Shown: positions 5,149 through 30,383 of the stretch, piece by piece
Layout of the letters: each line of letters begins with the position of its first letter
Numbering within the stretch: position 1 is the stretch's first letter
NCBI RefSeq assembly: GCF_000003605.2
Contig: NW_003125886.1
Span: forward strand, 448,133 to 478,515
Origin: Saccoglossus kowalevskii
Lineage: Eukaryota > Hemichordata > Enteropneusta > Harrimaniidae
Direction of reading: 5' to 3'
Length of the DNA stretch: 30,383 nucleotides
Notes under the pieces: generated by a model
Databases searched by the model: none
What the model saw: only the letters and a program-made list of their open reading frames with translations
What the model was told of the DNA's origin: nothing
Made by a program: the position numbers and the translations under genes

Positions 5149-5185
5149 TATATAAGACGACGATAAACTCGGGAATTCAGATCAA
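5149..5185 (+). promoter_or_regulatory. TATA box and initiator of the peptide-precursor gene
   Basis: TATATAAG at 5149-5156 is followed by an initiator-like TTCAGATC, with its A at about 5179. That spacing of about 30 bp is the standard distance from TATA to transcription start. The ATG lies 45 bp further on. Core promoter, short leader, ATG and donor site occur in the right order within 100 bp, which makes this the best-supported promoter in the window. Confidence 0.65.
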
Positions 5186-5223
5186 CAACGCTCGTAACAG
5201 TATTTAAACACACGAAGGAAGTA

Positions 5224-7303
5224 ATGGCCAACACACAATTTGGTAAGTACACATATTGCTTTGAGAATAATTTCAACAATTGCTGATGCAAATTTCGAAA
5301 ATCGAAATCTACAATGTTTATTATTATAATTCATTTCGTAAATAGATTACCAAAGTAATCAATCAATATTACATCTGAAGCATATATTTTTTTATTTATT
5401 TACTTGTTTGTTTGTTTACTTGTTTGTTTATTTATTTTATTCATTTATGTCACGGGTGATAGTGGTAAGAACCATCTTTGTTCATGAAAACAGTTTCCTT
5501 AAAACTTAAAAATCCATCAGTAAATAAACGGCAGTTTGCTCGCATGAAAACCCCTGTGCGTGCACACATCGACGTCGATTACATAAAAAGTTGTAAATCT
5601 AATGAACGCACAATAACTAACATCTAACGTATACATGTCTCGTTTCTGAAATGCAAAATATACAAATTTAGCAAGATTAATCAGTGTGGTGAAATATATA
5701 TTTTTATATTTAAATGTGTTCTGTAGGAGCGATGTATATATATATATATATATATTCTTCGTACAACGTGCATTGAAGACAACAATTATATACTCGTCTT
5801 CGATTGCGTTCAATTTACAAACCAGACAAACGCCGTTTGCTCTAGGGACCTGCAAGTGTGTATCAGATTCGATCATTATTTTGTGTGCAGATGATATAAA
5901 CCTACATAACGAGGCTCGAAATGTTTCAGAAAAGTTGAACAGTTTCGCAAATATCACTCAATTCCCAACCCCTTGGGTCAACCCAGACTTCTCATTTTAC
6001 CCAGTATACACAACAAATTGAATCGAATTGAAATTTCCAACATTTATATACATTATATATTTACTGTAAAATAATTATATTACAAGTAATGTAATTATTT
6101 CATAATTTTATTATTATTTGCATCTTTTGTTTATGGGGTTTTTTTTCTTATTTTCAAGGCATTGTAGTGGTTTTGTTCGTCTTTATGGCCATTCGTCTTG
6201 ACATGGTTGCTGCAAGCTGGAAGTATTGTCCGTTTCCTCCTTATTGTAAAAGAGAAAGTCATGCCGATTCGCTGAAATTACCACTTAGCAAACAAATAGA
6301 TATGCTTCAGTTTTCAGACATCGACGCTGATGGCGCTATCGACACATTACTGCAATCACTGAGGAAGCAACACAAAAACGGTGAGAACCAATATTTATAA
6401 AACAACAAATTAAATGAATGATAGACATTGAGTTGTTTATAATATAAGAAACATTAAAACATTTATTTTAAATATAATTCAAAATTTTCATTCCCAATAT
6501 TTTGCGTTTTCAACAAGTTAACTTTAGTGTAAATGGCAAAATATTGCGGGTTTCTAGTTACAACAACACAATTTGTCAGAAACGTGTGATTCTTTTCAAA
6601 AGTATGTTTTGAAACCACAAATAAGTGATAACTCATATTAATTTGCTGTATTTATTCCGGCGTTTACAATTGCATTTCAGTATATGTTATGATTATTTTA
6701 GCATTCCTATAGCCCCTTGTTTGCATTTAACCATCGAAAAATAAATACATATAAGCTCACTAAAATCAAAATCAAATGATTTCTGTTTTCTCTTAAAAGA
6801 GCTTAATTTTTTTCCTTTCACTTTTGTTGCGAAATTTCGTTCTTGTGGTTATATTTACACAACAATGCCACATTGACAGCCGACTTTTGGAAGGATATAG
6901 TCTATAAGCATAAGACTTCAATCGACGCACAGCGTCGATTTCGACTTTTGTCCCATGCGCCGTATAGAACGCGTGTAAATACGTTTGTTACTGTATCACT
7001 TTGTAAAAAAACTAACCATAGAAGCCACTTTCTCTGCCAGCATTCAACACATCACATTATCACGCATGGAGCCATACATAGATACAACTTAGTGTAGTTC
7101 AAAAGGCGTAGAACTTCACACGACCAATATTCAAAGTGAAATGAGACCGTTCCCTTTTCTTCTTCTGAGATCACGCATTGAAAATAGCCAACGACATCTT
7201 CGGTTGTATGATATATAATAATAATTTTTTTGTTGTCATTTTAGATGATGATCTGTTTGCTATAAATGAGTTTTTGGACAAGTCCAGTGAAAGAAAAGAC
7301 TAG
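5224..7303 (+). CDS. Secreted neuropeptide or peptide-hormone-like precursor, three exons, 99 residues
   Basis: Coding exons are 5224-5242, 6159-6380 and 7245-7303. Donors are G|GTAAGT and G|GTGAGA, acceptors TTTTCAAG and CATTTTAG, both introns phase 1, total 300 nt including the stop. Seen in the product: a hydrophobic N-terminus (IVVVLFVFMAI at residues 8-18) ending in VAA, giving a likely signal-peptidase cut after Ala25; then SWKYCPFPPYC (26-36) with two cysteines five residues apart; then the dibasic KR (37-38); then an acidic tail with one internal RK (75-76) and a C-terminal RK. The first ATG lies in good context (G at -3, G at +4). Known of such precursors: a signal peptide, a small disulfide peptide and a KR convertase site mark secreted signalling peptides. 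Inferred: the mature peptide is an 11-residue disulfide ring released into the secretory pathway. The C-terminal Cys is followed directly by KR with no Gly, so no amidation is expected. There is a loose resemblance to elevenin-type peptides (aromatic/proline-rich core, Cys close to a dibasic site), but Cys spacing differs. The family is unassigned. Confidence 0.75.
5380..5753. repeat. Low-complexity and TA-microsatellite tracts in intron 1 of the peptide gene
   Basis: A TTTA/TTTG-rich simple-sequence run lies at about 5386-5450 and a (TA)n run at about 5734-5754. Overlapping open frames on both strands of this intron (5517-6021) depend on these tracts and have no recognisable content. I take them as chance. 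Confidence 0.6.
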
Positions 7304-7361
7304 CGCAAACGCTCGGAAAGTGTCATCACCGGCAAGTAAAGCCATGTCAGTCTGAGTACCG

Positions 7362-7367
7362 AATAAA
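7362..7367 (+). terminator. Poly(A) signal of the peptide-precursor gene
   Basis: AATAAA lies 59 bp after the stop codon and is followed by T-rich sequence. It gives a short 3' UTR and closes the transcription unit that begins at about 5179. Confidence 0.6.
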
Positions 7368-8238: not shown

Positions 8239-10477
8239 TTAACCTGTTTCATTTTCCATTACAAATACATATACATATACACCACAGGTAAACAAAAAGA
8301 GAACGAGTCGATGAGTACCAAGGATGATAATATTATATTATTAAACATACTCTGCACTGTTTATAGAATTATTACATTTAAACAATACAAAATCAATGGC
8401 TTAGATCGAGTTGCAATTAGACTTGTGGAACCAAAACATGCAGTATCGTGCTGTTCCGATACGCCACTAAAGTTACTCTATCATTTCCATTCATTAATCC
8501 ATAGGCTTTGCCAATTTACCCAAATTTTTAATAAAAATTACCTTACTATTTCTGGCCAAATACTTTCTATTTCTAAAAAAAATTTAAGATACCGACAAAA
8601 AAAAACAAAAGAAAAGAGGCAATTTATTTGTTTTGCTTACATTGATATATATAGTAGCGTGTACATAATAAGATCTGATTAATACGTCTGGCATTTGCAT
8701 TGTTTTCAAAAATTCCCAATATTGCAAATTTCACTGATAATCTAAATCTATGGCAAATTTTACTCTATTTCTTCTCACAAGTTTTGTGCAAATTCACAAA
8801 ACCAAAAATAATATTTCATGCTTTCAATATCTGAACTGCACCAGTTACATAGTGCTGTATCCACCCCTCTTACATATAGCCAATTACCTGTAGAAATAAA
8901 TCTATAAAGCACCTTAAATTGAAACAAATCTCAATCTTCTATCAATTGTTGTATTTTTTGTGAATGTAAAATATTTTTTTCCAGTCAGCATCAGGGATAT
9001 TGAATGCACATTTATTTTGGCATTGAATTTGTAATTTTTCAATACAATTTTTTTGTATTTGGTAATAGCTTTTTATAAATATATTTTGTCTCACTTACCT
9101 TCATGTTCATCAAAAAGTCACCTGATTCATGAAGCTTAGATTTTCTCTGTTTAATCCACCCTCTACATGGACCAGGTATAGCCTCAACAAAACCCTGATA
9201 TGTAACACAATGTACTGTAATATTGAACTTGAGCTTTAACTGCTCCATGGAGAGGAGGGAATCATTATCATCTTGAATATCATTCAATACCCTGATACCA
9301 CTTTTATTCCACGTCTTGTAATATATGCTCTTGTAACCAACTTGTATATTATCATTAAACCACATGAACTGTTTCATGTAATACACTGTAGTATTTATGT
9401 ATGCTGAAATATACTTTAGCCACGATAAGTTAATATCTTTCAAAAAACAATTCACTAATGCCATTCTTGCAGTCGAAAATTGTTAAAATGATTTCTAGTA
9501 ATAATGTTAAAGAGCGATTCACATTTATGGCTGGACACAGTGAAGCGTTTAATCCAGCTAATTTAGTTGCACGGATTAAAGTTTCTACATCAGTCATGTT
9601 CAGGCCCCCTTCCTCCCCATTACAAATTAATATACGCCTTTTCACCTTATCCCGCCCACCATTTCAAATGAAGTCGTAGAGAACAGCATTTAATTATGTG
9701 GTGTGTGCTGCTGGTGGATGGATAATGAATAATTTAATTTGGATAAAACAAGGCTTATGCTAATAAGAATTTTTCCTATTACTGTTAGGCTCCTAATTTT
9801 GCACATAGTGAGTATTCCTTTAATTTCTTTTAGAATTGGAAAAAAGTTCAGGTCGAATGTCAGATAGTCAGATAGTTAGTAAATAAATATCCCTAAAATA
9901 TTAAATGTTCCACTGAATTAATTTCCCTTTTTTCACACAAAATTCTGGGAGAACCATTCATCGTGCCCAACCATATCACACTCGTCTTGCTGTAGTTTAT
10001 ATAACACGTCCAAGATGTTACACGTTGCATTCAAAGTGCCTTTTGTTATATCAAGTAGAAATATCATCTGCATATTGACCAATTACAAATTCCTGACCAT
10101 CAATATTAATCCATTTTCATTACATGCCTTCATCCACCCGCCAATCAAACAAACACTTTAGGAACATCCGGGGATTTTTGCGGTCAACTGAGCCATGTAC
10201 GGTCCGTCGCCAATAGCACCAGAGAGGTCCAATGATCAGAGAAATTCCCGGAACTACTTTCGTTTGCTTGGAGTAAATTTATAAAAAATAAAAAGGACAA
10301 TCATGATGATGTTAATATTTAATATCTTAATAAAAGTTTGCAACCGCACACAAAACCAATTTTACAACAATACATGTAAAGACAACTCACATCGGATACA
10401 TGAGCTTGTCAACCTAAAATGAAATTCAAACAATCGATAACTCGCAAATGATCAACAACTTGTGACAACAGTGCATA

Positions 10478-10711
10478 CTAATCCTGGCTAGATTCTGAGC
10501 TAGGGTCAATAACCCGTATATGACTGAATTTGCGTGATTTAACATGCGTGGGTGATACATTCTTCCGTGTTCCCGAAACAGTTACATTCAATGTGGTGGT
10601 ACAATTGTTCATAATGGCGTCGGCAAACGTATTCTGAAACTTGTCATTTTCGGTTACCATTAGTGAGACAGGGTCCAAACGTCGGGCACTTGATCACCTG
10701 CGCCGGGCACA
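10478..10711 (-). CDS. Unrecognised ORF inside the DNA that interrupts the LINE
   Basis: This open frame of about 78 codons begins SSARRLDPVSLMVTENDKF and ends SSESSQD before a stop. It is rich in Thr, Ser and Asn. Its codons look more balanced than the AT-rich surroundings, suggesting a once-coding segment, either a captured exon or a piece of another element. It does not fit the LINE reverse transcriptase on either side. No family is recognised. Confidence 0.25.
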
Positions 10712-10889
10712 AGCGTCCATATTCGAGCAGTAATATATAATACTTGTTTTTATTTTTCACAGCAGTAGCTAATACCTTAACACACAAAAGAAATAGATAA
10801 CAAAAGTGGAACCCACTGGCGCTCCCCCCCCCCTACTGAGCTTGAACCACCTGGAGGAAAAATATTGTTCTATACACAACTGCAATTAG

Positions 10890-11430
10890 TGGCGATCCGC
10901 TCCGCTAGGATTGCCCTTATAATCACTTTTGTCGTTTTGTGTGTGTGTGATTTCCAGTGTTTTCACGTATGATTTCTTCTGTGATTTTTTTGGCTTGGCC
11001 GATTTTGCTCAAACTTGGCAGGCAGGTCACACATTTACCCTATGTTTTTGGCCCACCGTTGCCATAGCCACAAAACTGAATTTTGGATAGCTTCGCGCCA
11101 AATGTATCTCCTCCTACAAATTCAGGATAAAACATAGCTTATTCTACTCAGCTTGAGTGTGGGCACAAAGCCTTTGGCGAAATTTGAAAGAGCAAAAAAT
11201 ATTCTTCAACCTGGTATTTTTTATAGATTTTATTTTCGTTCTGTTCGTCTGTTTTTCAGTTTAAAAAGCTTTCATCATTTGTCCATTTCTTACACTAGAT
11301 ACCAGCCGGTACCCCCCCCCCCCACCGCTCATAGTACAGTTGATCATAGTTCCTGGGCTCCCTGTGGTTTATGTCACACAATGGAAACAGCCAAAACATG
11401 TTGCTTGTTATTGAGCGGAGCGGATCGCCA
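10890..11430. mobile_element. Inverted-repeat element nested in the LINE reverse transcriptase
   Basis: TGGCGATCCGCTCCGCT at 10890-10906 is repeated perfectly in inverted orientation at 11414-11430, enclosing 541 bp. The right end abuts LINE reverse-transcriptase sequence, which reads up to about 11435 on the minus strand, so the element entered the LINE. No clear target duplication is visible, so the arms may not be the exact termini. Inside are C-tracts (about 10827-10835, just outside the left arm, and 11311-11320) and the block shared with the window start. It has no coding capacity. Confidence 0.6.
11168..11294 (+). repeat. Second copy of the dispersed repeat found at the window start
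   Basis: This block is homologous to the minus strand of 1-145 over its whole length. It lies in the middle of the 541-bp inverted-repeat element, so the copy at the window start may be part of another member of the same family. Confidence 0.65.
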
Positions 11431-12599
11431 ACCAGCCTACCGGCTTGTTCTTGTAAAAGTTGTAATCCATTTTTTTGCATCTCCCCAAAATTCATTCTAA
11501 TCATAATTTTTAAAATCAAATGCCATTCAACTGAATTATAAGCCTTTTGAAATCAACAAGTAGAAATAGACCTGATAATCCCTTATATTCTAAATAACTC
11601 ATTATATCATAAACTAATCGGATATTCTCACCAATATAGCGTCCACTGAGAAATTCCAGTTAAGAATTAGAAATAATATTTGGCGAATCTATCTTCATTC
11701 TAGCAGCTATAACTTCTGAAGCAGTTTTGTAATCAGTGTTTAACAATGTGAACCGTCGCCAATTTGATAAAAATCTTCTATACTTTTCTTTTTTTAAGGA
11801 TAGTATTAATATTAGAATTAAAAGGCCTTGTTTCTGCTAAACAGACATTTCCCCCTTAATAAATGCAAGTTTATATATTCGTATCAGGATTGGGAATATT
11901 TTGTTCCAAAACATTTTATGGATTTCACAAGGCAAACCATCCTTTCCTGGTGACTTACCATTATCAAAGTTTTTCAATATTTTGGCGCACTCATTAAGTC
12001 CAATGAGGCCATCTTAAACTATTTTATTTTGATCTGTTGGCGAGGGGGAGTTTTGCCAAAGTGTCAAACGATTCTTCCTTGTTAGGGAGGTATTTTGTGC
12101 AGTAAAGATTCGGGTAAAAATTGTCCTGTTTTTTTCAATATATCTTTTTGGCTAGTTATAATTTTATAATAAGAACTTAGAATTGCTGTTTTTGTCACCA
12201 TCCTCGACCCACAATTTCCAGAGCCTTTTGAACTTTATGGTTATTTTGGTTTGCATATCCCTGGTATCATTATCATAATTATGTACCAAGTTCCAATCAC
12301 CAGCTAAAATAATTGACGATTTTTCAAGTGTTCGTATCATATTATTTATCTTATCATAAAATAATACTTCATCCGTATTTGGCCCATAAATAAAGCCGAG
12401 GGTTACTTTGCAATCACGAATAGTCATATCTAAAAATAAATAGTTTCCGGTAGGATCCTGAACCTTTCTGTGAATAGTAAAATCTAAAGAGTTACTAAAA
12501 TGAATGCCGACTCCCCTAGAGTTAATAGCTCCTTGTGCAAAAATGGACGGTGAGCCCCACTTTGCTCCTACTGATGAATAAAGTTAATATTATGGTGCA

Positions 12600-14349: not shown

Positions 14350-14645
14350 TTTTCTTATGCTAATTTATTCATGGCGTACAGTTTCTGTGCTCATTCGTGA
14401 ATATTCATTAATTTGAAAAGAAGGACCAATTTAAAAATAATTATTGTGGCTGTTTGTGTACATGTGACGTGCAGCTGTACGAACCTGTACGAACTTTGAA
14501 TTTTCGCGCACTGTCTTATCCACTGTACCACGAGAAATATATACTACGAATTGCCAAGACACGATCCTGTTAATAATTGTAGTTCAATAATGATACTCTC
14601 TTGTGCACTGTCCGCTGGTAAGTTGGAATGATGTCAAATGATTAA

Positions 14646-15060
14646 ACAAGTCGTGTTTAATTAATTTCCACTATTACAAGTTGTTAAATTGTGAAAATAA
14701 ATGTGTGGACAAATATTTTAGACTAATTTTGGTGTAGACAAGTCGTGTTTAATTAATTTCCACCATTACAAGTTGTTAAATTGTCAAAATAAATGTGTGG
14801 ACAAATATTCTGGGACTTATTTTGGTTTAAACAACTCTCATTTAATTATTTTCCACCATTACAATTTGTTCAATTAAGAGAATAAATGTGTAAATATTGG
14901 CAAAGTATGTGTGATACCTGTCATTTAATTAAGTTCCACCTCTACGAAATTGTTAAACTGAGAGAATAAATGGGTCGACAAATATTTGATACTTATTTAG
15001 GTGTGAAAAACTCGTGTTTGATCAACTTCCACCGTTGCAAGTTATTCAAATAATTAAATT
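14646..15060. repeat. Minisatellite, about five diverged 83-93-bp units
   Basis: Units carry the words TTTAATTAATTTCCAC, TTACAAGTTGTTAAATTG and AATAAATGTGTGGACAAATAT. Starts are near 14646, 14738, 14831, 14914 and 15005. The first two copies are nearly identical and later ones increasingly diverged, so the array seems to have grown from the left. It lies just outside the 5' side of the LINE ORF1. Confidence 0.8.
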
Positions 15061-17948: not shown

Positions 17949-20900
17949 TTCTTGGAGGAGTTTTTGGAGCGCCATTAACTGCTGAAGGCTATTGTCAAGC
18001 CAAAGTACTGACAGAAGTACCTTAGAAAGCGTGAGTAGATTCTGACTGAGTGTTCTCACTGCTGATTACACTCTGATCTTCAAATTCTTGTCAAGTTTGA
18101 GATTTAGGATACCATTGTGTTACCGGTATATATTTATAAAGGACATTAGATAAAGGACGTTAGATAATTATTTATGATGTCTTTTGATTCAGATTTGGGT
18201 CTCATGTAATGTATACAACAACCTTAAAATATACATTACCTTAAAAATGGCATTTTTAAACTAGGGTATATGCTATACAAATTTGATTGCAAGCATGACG
18301 TACAACATGTACCAGTGAACATTAACGATGACGATCAGAACTTATTTTTATATACTTTATAATTTTATATTCTCAATTATGTAGATTATATTGGAAACGT
18401 GTGTCAAATTTGCAGACACTAGTTTTTTTTCTCTTTTGAGTTCTATTGTGAACATACATACAGACATATACACACATAATGTACTTGCCTCCCTACATAC
18501 ATACATACAGCACTGTACGCTCTACCTATCCACTGCTTTGTCATGGTGCTGGTATTAAAGTGGACAGTGAACATTTTCGTTGATTATTTTGTAAATGATG
18601 AGACAAACTATATATTATTGTGTGATTATGTTAAATCAACGTGGTATTTTGAATTGTTTTAGATCTTCACATTGAAGGTATTTTCCGAGTTCCTGGGAAT
18701 GCTGAAAGACAGAGGTTGTTAAAAGAGAAGATAATAGCGAGTGAGATACTTGACTTAGATACAGATATTTTCACTCCTCATGATGTAGCATGTGTGTTGA
18801 AAACATTCCTTGGTGAACTGCCTGAACCACTATTATCAGACAAACAGTTCCAAGCACAAGTACAAGCAGCAGGTAACTTTTTGTGTTTTTTATTTCTTTA
18901 AAAAGCTGAGGTCAACCAATGTCACCTTTCATGAAATATTTATTCAGCAATTTTAATGAAGACCTAAAGCCAATGGGAAATTTAATTTAAATTACATAAA
19001 TACAAATAATCGTCTACATCTCCTTACAAGTGATGCAATGCCAGATTGCATATGTTGCACATGTTTGTATTTGAAGTACAGAACTACAAGTTTTTCACTG
19101 TAATGATTCCTTGACAAGATCATACGATTTTTTGTTGTGCCAGGCTTTGCTAATATTGAGTGAATTGCTTTTTTATGTGTAGGTTGCAATTGATAGTACA
19201 TATATGGTCATTTAAAACAGAATTTGAACTCTAAAACACCATCTATGATACAAGAAATAGTTTTTTGACCAAGATGATACATTTTGTATGCACATGTCTC
19301 ATAGCATGAAACCCAACTATAAATTCATTATATGACAACAACCACCACCCATGACCCATTCATCTCAACTACTACTTGTTTTCAAATGAAATTTTGATTA
19401 AAATTTGCATGCTGTACTTAAGATTAATATGGTGCATGAAATAATATCAAGAAAATTAAGACTCTTGTTTCGTTTAAAGATTTAACTTACAAGTTAGAAG
19501 AATATAAGCCAGCAGCCATGAGTGAAGAGAATTTACAGAAATGGAGAGATAAACGAAAACAAGACCACATCACATCCCTGACATATTTATTTTTAATGTT
19601 GCCGAGTCACAGCTATAAACTATTGCAGGAGTTGTTGGAACTGCTTTATTTGGCTGCTAAAGAACAGACTCATAATAAAATGACAGCATATAATCTTGGG
19701 GTTATGTTTGCACCTCATGTGTTATGGCCAAGATATGTAAGTATATCTATGACCTCATTTCTTAATGGTCATACATTCTGGTATTGGGGGGAGGGTATCG
19801 CTACTTTGACATGTATGGTACGACAGTATGTGGAAGATTGTTATCTGAGATTGGCCAATTCATGCCAATGTTATCGTTTCATATGTTATTTCCATTTAAG
19901 AGTAAATTTTGTAGAATTCCTTGAGTTCGCATGACATCTTCACAACTGGTCTGTTCTGCTACACACACACACACACACATTTTTTTGATGGTAAAGTATG
20001 CTAATGACTAGCATGAATTGTAAGGTGCAAACATAGACTATGCTGCAAGCAAAGGATAGTTTAGATCTGACCTATTCTACGCAACTGTAATCCATGCATA
20101 ACCTTGATGCGTTGAATTCTTTGCGTAAATACACATCTACTTTCCCTTTTTAGAATTCAGCTACTCCTGGGTGCCATAATGTCACTGCATATTGTGAATA
20201 ATCAACAATGAATACACCTCCAGTCATAATTTGGCCATAATCTGACCATGATTTAAAAGAAAAAAAAAATTATAAAATTACCACTGCTGGGCCAGTCTAT
20301 TCAACATTATATAAAGTTATGTATTGGTGTGTAATCAATTGTTTCCAATCATTTCAAGGGTTGAATTTACCTTGACACCTTATTATCCAAAGTTCAATCT
20401 TATTGGGTAAATAACTACACACTGGAGATTTTCAGCCAATGAAAAATGTGGTTACACTGTGTAGCATGTTTCATTTATTGATCGTTTGTGTGTTTCAGTT
20501 TACTACAGATGATGTCAGAGATCAAAATTTTGTCAACAAATTGAATAAAGGTGTGGAGTTTATGATAAAATATTCTCAGAAGATTTTTAGGGTAAGTGAC
20601 TTATTTTTGTTCTACAATCCTCTGAAAAAAAGAATTTAGTTTATCTTGTGTCAAAATAATTCAACTGTAGTGTGTGTTTTTAGGCACATTCAGTATTGTA
20701 TTTTTCACAAATGTTCAGCTGGCATGTTTAGGGATCATGACACCCAACATTTGTTCACTTCATAATCGGTAGCTTCAACTTGACTGGAACCTCACCTAAT
20801 TATCGTTTGCATTTCATTTTGTATCAGCATTTGACAAAAGGTAATTGAAAGGTACCCACTATGCACTGTGTCAACATAAAATATCCAAGTAAATGTTTCA

Positions 20901-29800: not shown

Positions 29801-30383
29801 CTGCTATGTGTCTTATCTCTGTATATTCACCAATAGTCTGTCGATAAAAACCCTAATATAAGACAACGCCCACCTCCCATGCTGTGTTTTATCTTAGTAT
29901 AATCACTAATACAGTCTGTCGATAAAAACCCTAATATAAGACAACGCCCACCTCCCATGCTGTGTGTTTTATCTTAGTATAATCACTAATACAGTCTGTC
30001 GATAAAAACCCTAGTATAAGACAACGCCCACCTCCCATGCTATGTGTTTTATCTTAGTATATTCACTAATACAGTCTGTCGATAAAAACCCTAATATAAG
30101 ACAACGCCCACCTCCCATGCTGTGTGTTTTATCTCAGTATAATCACTAATACAGTCTGTCAATAAAAACCCTAATATAAGACAACGCCCACCTCCCATGC
30201 TATGTGTTTTATCTTAGTATAATCACTAATACAGTCTGTCAATAAAAACCCTAATATAAGACAACGCCCACCTCCCATGCTATGTGTTTTATCTTAGTAT
30301 ATTCACTAATACAGTCTGTCGATAAAAACCCTAATATAAGACAACGCCCACCTCCCATGCTATGTGTTTTATCTTAGTATAAT
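29801..30383. repeat. 80-bp satellite array, at least seven units, running off the window
   Basis: Units share AGACAACGCCCACCTCCCAT at 29861, 29939, 30019, 30099, 30179, 30259 and 30339 (periods 78, then 80 throughout), with GATAAAAACCCTAATATAAG just before it. Copies are over 95% alike from the second onward. The first is shorter and more diverged, marking the array edge. A few sites vary (CGATAAAA or CAATAAAA; TATAATCAC or TATATTCAC). Confidence 0.95.

Follow-up and report, generated by a model that had tools for sequence, protein, structure and literature searches.

In the elevenins (L11) of protostomes, 8 residues separate two shared cysteines, and positions I4, D5, C6, F11, P13, C15, R16, G17 and V18 are conserved; in a study of Aplysia elevenin, the exchange of Gly17 for Ala was the most damaging substitution (PMC10175484). 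Elevenins and endothelins are not amidated, whereas CCHamides are (PMC5627052), and the receptors of elevenins cluster with those for other disulfide-bridged peptides (PMC5818035). Elevenin-like receptors have been predicted in the acorn worm Saccoglossus kowalevskii, for which no precursor was predicted (PMC10175484), and the passages of PMC6188537 considered here hold nothing on a hemichordate elevenin. Other ring peptides include those of the vasopressin/oxytocin type, in which a 4-residue ring is amidated and followed by a neurophysin domain, and those of the calcitonin type, which have an N-terminal cysteine pair (PMC4772807). The gene considered here occupies positions 5149-7367 of a 30,383-nucleotide stretch of S. 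kowalevskii DNA (contig NW_003125886.1, positions 448,133 to 478,515, forward strand), hereafter the window. It is probably a real, apparently single-copy Saccoglossus prohormone gene, known here from genomic sequence alone, for an 11-residue ring peptide, SWKYCPFPPYC.

Three-exon anatomy and the predicted precursor

The gene is composed of three exons, and its features are as follows.

5149..5156, plus strand: TATA box (TATATAAG), read directly from the window sequence
5177..5183, plus strand: initiator-like TCAGATC, from the sequence, with its A at 5179, 30 nt after the first T of the TATA box
5224..5242, plus strand: coding part of exon 1, MANTQF and the first base of codon 7, from the spliced translation
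5243..6158, plus strand: intron 1, phase 1, GT-AG, 916 bases, GC 0.296, from the spliced translation and splice signals
6159..6380, plus strand: exon 2, with the remaining signal peptide, the ring peptide and KR, followed by most of the tail; GC 0.423
6215..6247, plus strand: predicted mature peptide SWKYCPFPPYC, residues 26-36, with putative signal cleavage and disulfide
6248..6253, plus strand: KR dibasic cleavage site, residues 37-38, from the sequence
6381..7244, plus strand: intron 2, phase 1, GT-AG, 864 bases, GC 0.317, from the spliced translation and splice signals
7245..7303, plus strand: exon 3, with the end of the tail and the TAG stop (7301-7303), from the spliced translation
7362..7367, plus strand: AATAAA polyadenylation signal, from the sequence

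An earlier, sequence-only reading of the window had described a TATA box, an initiator, an ATG, two phase-1 introns, a stop and AATAAA, and each was recovered on the plus strand where it had been placed. The ATG at 5224 is the first downstream of the initiator and carries a G at both -3 and +4. The splice donors read G|GTAAGT and G|GTGAGA, and both acceptors are preceded by long T-rich tracts, that of intron 1 ending in a slightly unusual AAG. When 54 combinations of splice positions were tried, GT-AG splicing gave a product of 99 residues, MANTQFGIVVVLFVFMAIRLDMVAASWKYCPFPPYCKRESHADSLKLPLSKQIDMLQFSDIDADGAIDTLLQSLRKQHKNDDDLFAINEFLDKSSERKD, in one open frame closed by TAG. Five of the 54, all shifted and without GT-AG at both introns, likewise keep an open frame as far as that stop, and their products differ by one or two altered or missing residues.

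The encoded precursor presents a hydrophobic leader, SWKYCPFPPYC, KR and an acidic tail of 61 residues, in the order that had been described from the sequence. The highest Kyte-Doolittle mean over 11 residues reaches 3.54 within the first 35 residues, versus 0.78 from KR onward. In an AlphaFold model of the exon 2 product alone, made from a single sequence, the leader forms a helix (residues 2-18) and the first ten residues have a mean pLDDT of 86; the mean for the whole is 62.4, residues 32-43 fall below 50, and the ring is not confidently modelled. A VxA^S signal cleavage site (cutting after VAA), placed by eye, is predicted directly before SWKYC. A single-peptide neuropeptide or hormone precursor is expected to have an N-terminal hydrophobic signal sequence and a peptide flanked by a signal cleavage site and a dibasic site, and the product has both, the point of signal cleavage being the one placed by eye.

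The whole product contains only two cysteines, with five residues between them, three of which are proline, and the second cysteine stands immediately before KR. The ring accordingly spans residues 30-36 of 99. The peptide end reads CKR and lacks an amidation glycine. The tail carries 14 Asp and Glu residues versus 8 Lys and Arg, and includes an additional RK that is a possible cut site. For the disulfide form of SWKYCPFPPYC, the predicted [M+H]+ is 1388.580 and the [M+2H]2+ 694.794; reduction would shift the mass by 2.016.

On this anatomy, the signal peptide would be removed before Ser26, a PC2-like prohormone convertase would cut after Lys37-Arg38 in the secretory pathway, and a carboxypeptidase would trim the KR. 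The two cysteines would oxidise to a disulfide, closing a proline-rich ring of 7 residues, and the product would be the non-amidated, 11-residue SWKYCPFPPYC. Neurons or secretory cells may release the peptide, which would most likely act on a G-protein-coupled receptor. The gene anatomy and the encoded product are read from the sequence itself, and from these we infer transcription, signal-peptide cleavage, KR cleavage, the disulfide bond, the cell type and the receptor alike. Support for such a pathway is provided by the same genome, where at least 149 7tm_1 matches (147 of 713 candidates scored) and two neurophysin-domain matches are consistent with an animal receptor and hormone toolkit, and by the precedent of neuropeptides that have a disulfide ring and no amidation, an established class (PMC10175484, PMC5627052). 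Juveniles of S. kowalevskii express PC2 along with two further enzymes of peptide processing, and none of the neuropeptides named in the passages considered here resembles SWKYCPFPPYC (PMC10508912).

A gene or a chance arrangement

The open frame that holds exon 2 is only 101 codons long, and frame length says nothing in this window because it also contains frames of 146-147 codons that show no gene signs, one of which (5520-5957, minus strand) lies inside intron 1. A layout test was applied instead, which required a TATA box with an initiator, the first ATG, a donor, a T-rich acceptor, at least 45 open codons, a hydrophobic N-terminus, and C-x(3-10)-C with a dibasic site. These criteria were derived from the gene itself, and AAG acceptors were permitted after a stricter version with [CT]AG acceptors (200 shuffles) missed the gene. 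The full layout, from promoter to ring, occurs once in the real window, as this gene, and in none of 300 dinucleotide-shuffled windows. With the promoter left out and any ATG permitted, the layout arises in 25 of the 300. Thus, on a genome-wide scale the peptide layout is not rare in itself, whereas the layout with its promoter is.

The alternative is that the frame is spurious, furnished with plausible splice signals and yielding no gene product. This is unlikely, given that the TATA box, initiator, first ATG, splice signals, stop and AATAAA all fall in a single correct order and that no shuffled window held the full layout from promoter to ring. Several observations nonetheless favour chance or weigh against a functional prohormone gene, beginning with the 25 shuffled windows that matched without a promoter. 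In the signal peptide, RLD separates the core from the cleavage site, and the N-terminus carries no positive charge. The codon signal is also weak. By scoring trained on 30 receptor open reading frames from the same genome, and measured against 468 non-coding chunks, the full codon score of exon 2 reaches the 95th percentile, but against 155 coding chunks only the 12th; its synonymous codon score reaches the 88th and 15th percentiles, respectively. Higher scores are attained by two other frames of this exon under the full measure and by three under the synonymous one. However, the test has little power here, because two RhoGAP pieces of the window that are recognised by Pfam score -0.098 and -0.198 per codon, below the 0.023 of exon 2. 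Additionally, the locus was chosen out of a larger scan, and no relative was found in any collection searched.

These searches covered several sources. Within the 572 Mb genome assembly, a search at E up to 10 returned only stretches with exons 2 and 3 of the gene itself, with no second copy, and the gene is apparently single copy. No Pfam or NCBIfam family matched the product at E up to 10, and the PDB returned a single chain, an engineered protein at E 0.11 that was dismissed as chance. No relative was confirmed among plasmids, viral contigs and prokaryote genomes, where none was expected; 2 viral and 43 bacterial stretches fitted the short pattern, and none of these was confirmed as a relative. 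CPFPPYC and six letter variants of it were not found in the open-licence papers searched, and the 2013 surveys of Saccoglossus peptides are not among the papers considered here. The description of the peptide as undescribed, made from the sequence, therefore extends to Pfam, NCBIfam, the PDB, the viral, bacterial and plasmid collections, its own genome and open-licence papers, and not beyond these. Existing annotations may already include the gene, with or without a name.

Comparison with families of secreted ring peptides

The sequence-only reading had found no match to these families, and SWKYCPFPPYC fails each membership test for the vasopressin, somatostatin/allatostatin-C, CCAP and calcitonin types, some of the rules being general knowledge of these families. 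Vasopressin/oxytocin-type precursors share the placement of a ring peptide right after the signal peptide, followed by a dibasic site (PMC4772807). They are unlike the present precursor, which has five ring residues and neither an amidation glycine nor a neurophysin domain. Membership of this family was rejected, as no Pfam match was returned at E up to 10 and the ring is followed by KR (in CKR) and not by glycine. The neurophysin matches of the genome lie on contigs other than that of this gene, in two frames (L036 1480-1713 and L037 1353-1595, minus strand), in one of which a stop interrupts the match. These are presumably the frames expected of vasotocin-type and NG-peptide-type genes.

Among the bombesin, CCHamide and endothelin types, it is for the bombesin-type genes that a first intron of phase 1, interrupting the peptide, is described (PMC12002301), and the present gene shares this intron phase. 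Here, however, the intron falls in the signal peptide, after residue 6, and the amidation glycine is absent, on which grounds bombesin-type membership was rejected. Calcitonin-type membership was likewise rejected, as SWKYCPFPPYC ends at its ring and has no glycine, whereas the cysteine pair of calcitonin-type peptides heads a longer, amidated peptide. CCAP is a specific 9-residue amidated ring peptide; its ring is of equal size, but only the cysteines of the ring are shared (by eye) and the amidation glycine is missing, and this candidate was rejected as well.

In somatostatin and allatostatin-C, the ring lies at the C-terminus of the mature peptide or close to it, and the peptides themselves are placed at the end of the precursor. 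The first of these family traits is shared by SWKYCPFPPYC. Unlike them, its ring is near the front of the precursor and has 5 residues between the cysteines, versus the 6 ring residues of Aplysia allatostatin-C (PMC10175484). Membership was rejected on the position of the ring, at residues 30-36 of 99 and not at the C-terminus. A further resemblance, of a general kind, is to the contryphans of cone snails, which also have a small, proline-rich disulfide ring of equal size. These are unlike the present peptide in being amidated venom peptides placed at the end of their precursors. The passages of the doppelganger paper considered here treat families other than contryphans (PMC10501145). In the starfish peptides Arnp22 and Arnp23 the cysteines are four apart (PMC4772807), and a likeness to these was rejected on that spacing and on their different layout.

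Elevenin had been named as the family nearest in flavour. Both precursors have a signal peptide and a basic cleavage site and hold one disulfide-ring peptide that is not amidated, and the F-x-P-x-C that runs up to the second cysteine matches F11, P13 and C15 when aligned on that cysteine, three of the nine conserved elevenin positions. The spacing of the cysteines, however, is wrong, with 5 internal residues and not 8; I4, D5, R16, G17 and V18 are absent, and the peptide ends at its second cysteine. Elevenin membership was rejected on the spacing and on the three of nine positions. A search of the genome with elevenin protein gave no match, using a 20-residue query that is insensitive. The sequence-only interpretation is partly supported: its anatomy is as expected of a single-peptide prohormone gene, and the likeness to elevenin amounts to F-x-P-x-C at the second cysteine.

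Since S. kowalevskii has predicted elevenin-like receptors and no predicted precursor, an elevenin-ligand reading of the gene was proposed, and was itself graded weak. In its broader form, the gene would encode the missing deuterostome ligand of these orphan receptors, either as an elevenin with a shortened ring and no RG tail or as a novel ring-peptide system of ambulacrarians that took the place of elevenin, and this is very improbable. The narrower form, in which SWKYCPFPPYC is a divergent deuterostome elevenin-type peptide that acts as ligand of the Saccoglossus receptors, is the least probable of all the readings considered. It would account for receptors that lack a precursor, for the common secretory layout and for the fit of F-x-P-x-C to three conserved positions. 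It would also require five inter-cysteine residues in place of the eight common to elevenins and the loss of five conserved positions, among them the Gly17 whose change to Ala proved most damaging in Aplysia (PMC10175484).

The same secretion and KR processing route would equally serve an antimicrobial or deterrent peptide, secreted for defence or as part of the mucus by epidermal gland cells and not by neurons. A signal peptide and disulfide ring fit such a product equally well, the sequence has no neuron-specific feature, and no relative was found in Pfam, NCBIfam or the PDB. Yet the predicted peptide is short, mildly basic with its one lysine, and not cysteine-rich, and no second copy was found in the genome, whereas defence peptides are often multicopy. 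A defensive role is improbable, and a prohormone gene for a ring peptide remains the preferred explanation of the locus.

Genomic surroundings and significance

Downstream of the gene, the plus strand at 18653-19930 encodes parts of a protein with a RhoGAP domain (PF00620, E 1.1e-14 and 3.2e-11), which we take to be ARHGAP19-like. Among the window frames scanned, which were not all frames, this is the sole downstream gene recognised by Pfam. Between the two, frame pieces at 9042-12583 (minus strand) resemble a decayed LINE-type element, with an endonuclease match at 12167-12583 (E 0.016, below the Pfam cut-off) and a reverse-transcriptase-like motif, recognised by eye, at 11840-12013. Two tandem arrays are also present: a diverged one at 14642-15051, with a 93-base unit in 4.5 copies at 72% match, and another at 29802-30383, with an 80-base unit in 7.3 copies at 95% match, which reaches the edge of the window.

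Elsewhere in the assembly, the mitochondrial contig C4830 (L005 3466-9942) carries rrnS, rrnL, ND2 and ND1 on one strand, with COX1 inverted. In five mitochondrial genes, including COX1, TGA occurs within the frames and AGG is absent. Read by eye at conserved sites, over five genes within 10,000 bases of this contig, which measures 17,037 bases, ATA falls at conserved Ile sites, AGA at conserved Ser sites and AAA at conserved Lys sites, such as two in ND1. According to a paper on Rhabdopleura, the S. kowalevskii mitochondrion likewise uses ATA for Ile, AAA for Lys and AGA for Ser, lacks AGG and, compared with Balanoglossus, has COX1 inverted and ND1 or ND2 transposed (PMC3121625); PMC2697986 agrees on ATA and AAA, and echinoderm mitochondria read AAA as Asn (PMC3121625, PMC2697986). 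Both the code and the gene order of the contig are thus those published for S. kowalevskii (PMC3121625), from which the genome is taken to be that of this species or of a near relative.

Acorn worms are closely related to chordates. For several neuropeptide receptors predicted in these animals, no ligand was known at the time of a 2014 paper and of PMC10175484 (2023). If SWKYCPFPPYC is not conserved, it would be a lineage-specific secreted peptide of modest interest. If it is both expressed and conserved, it would provide a candidate ligand of exact predicted mass for a receptor search, and might close a gap in the history of deuterostome ring peptides.
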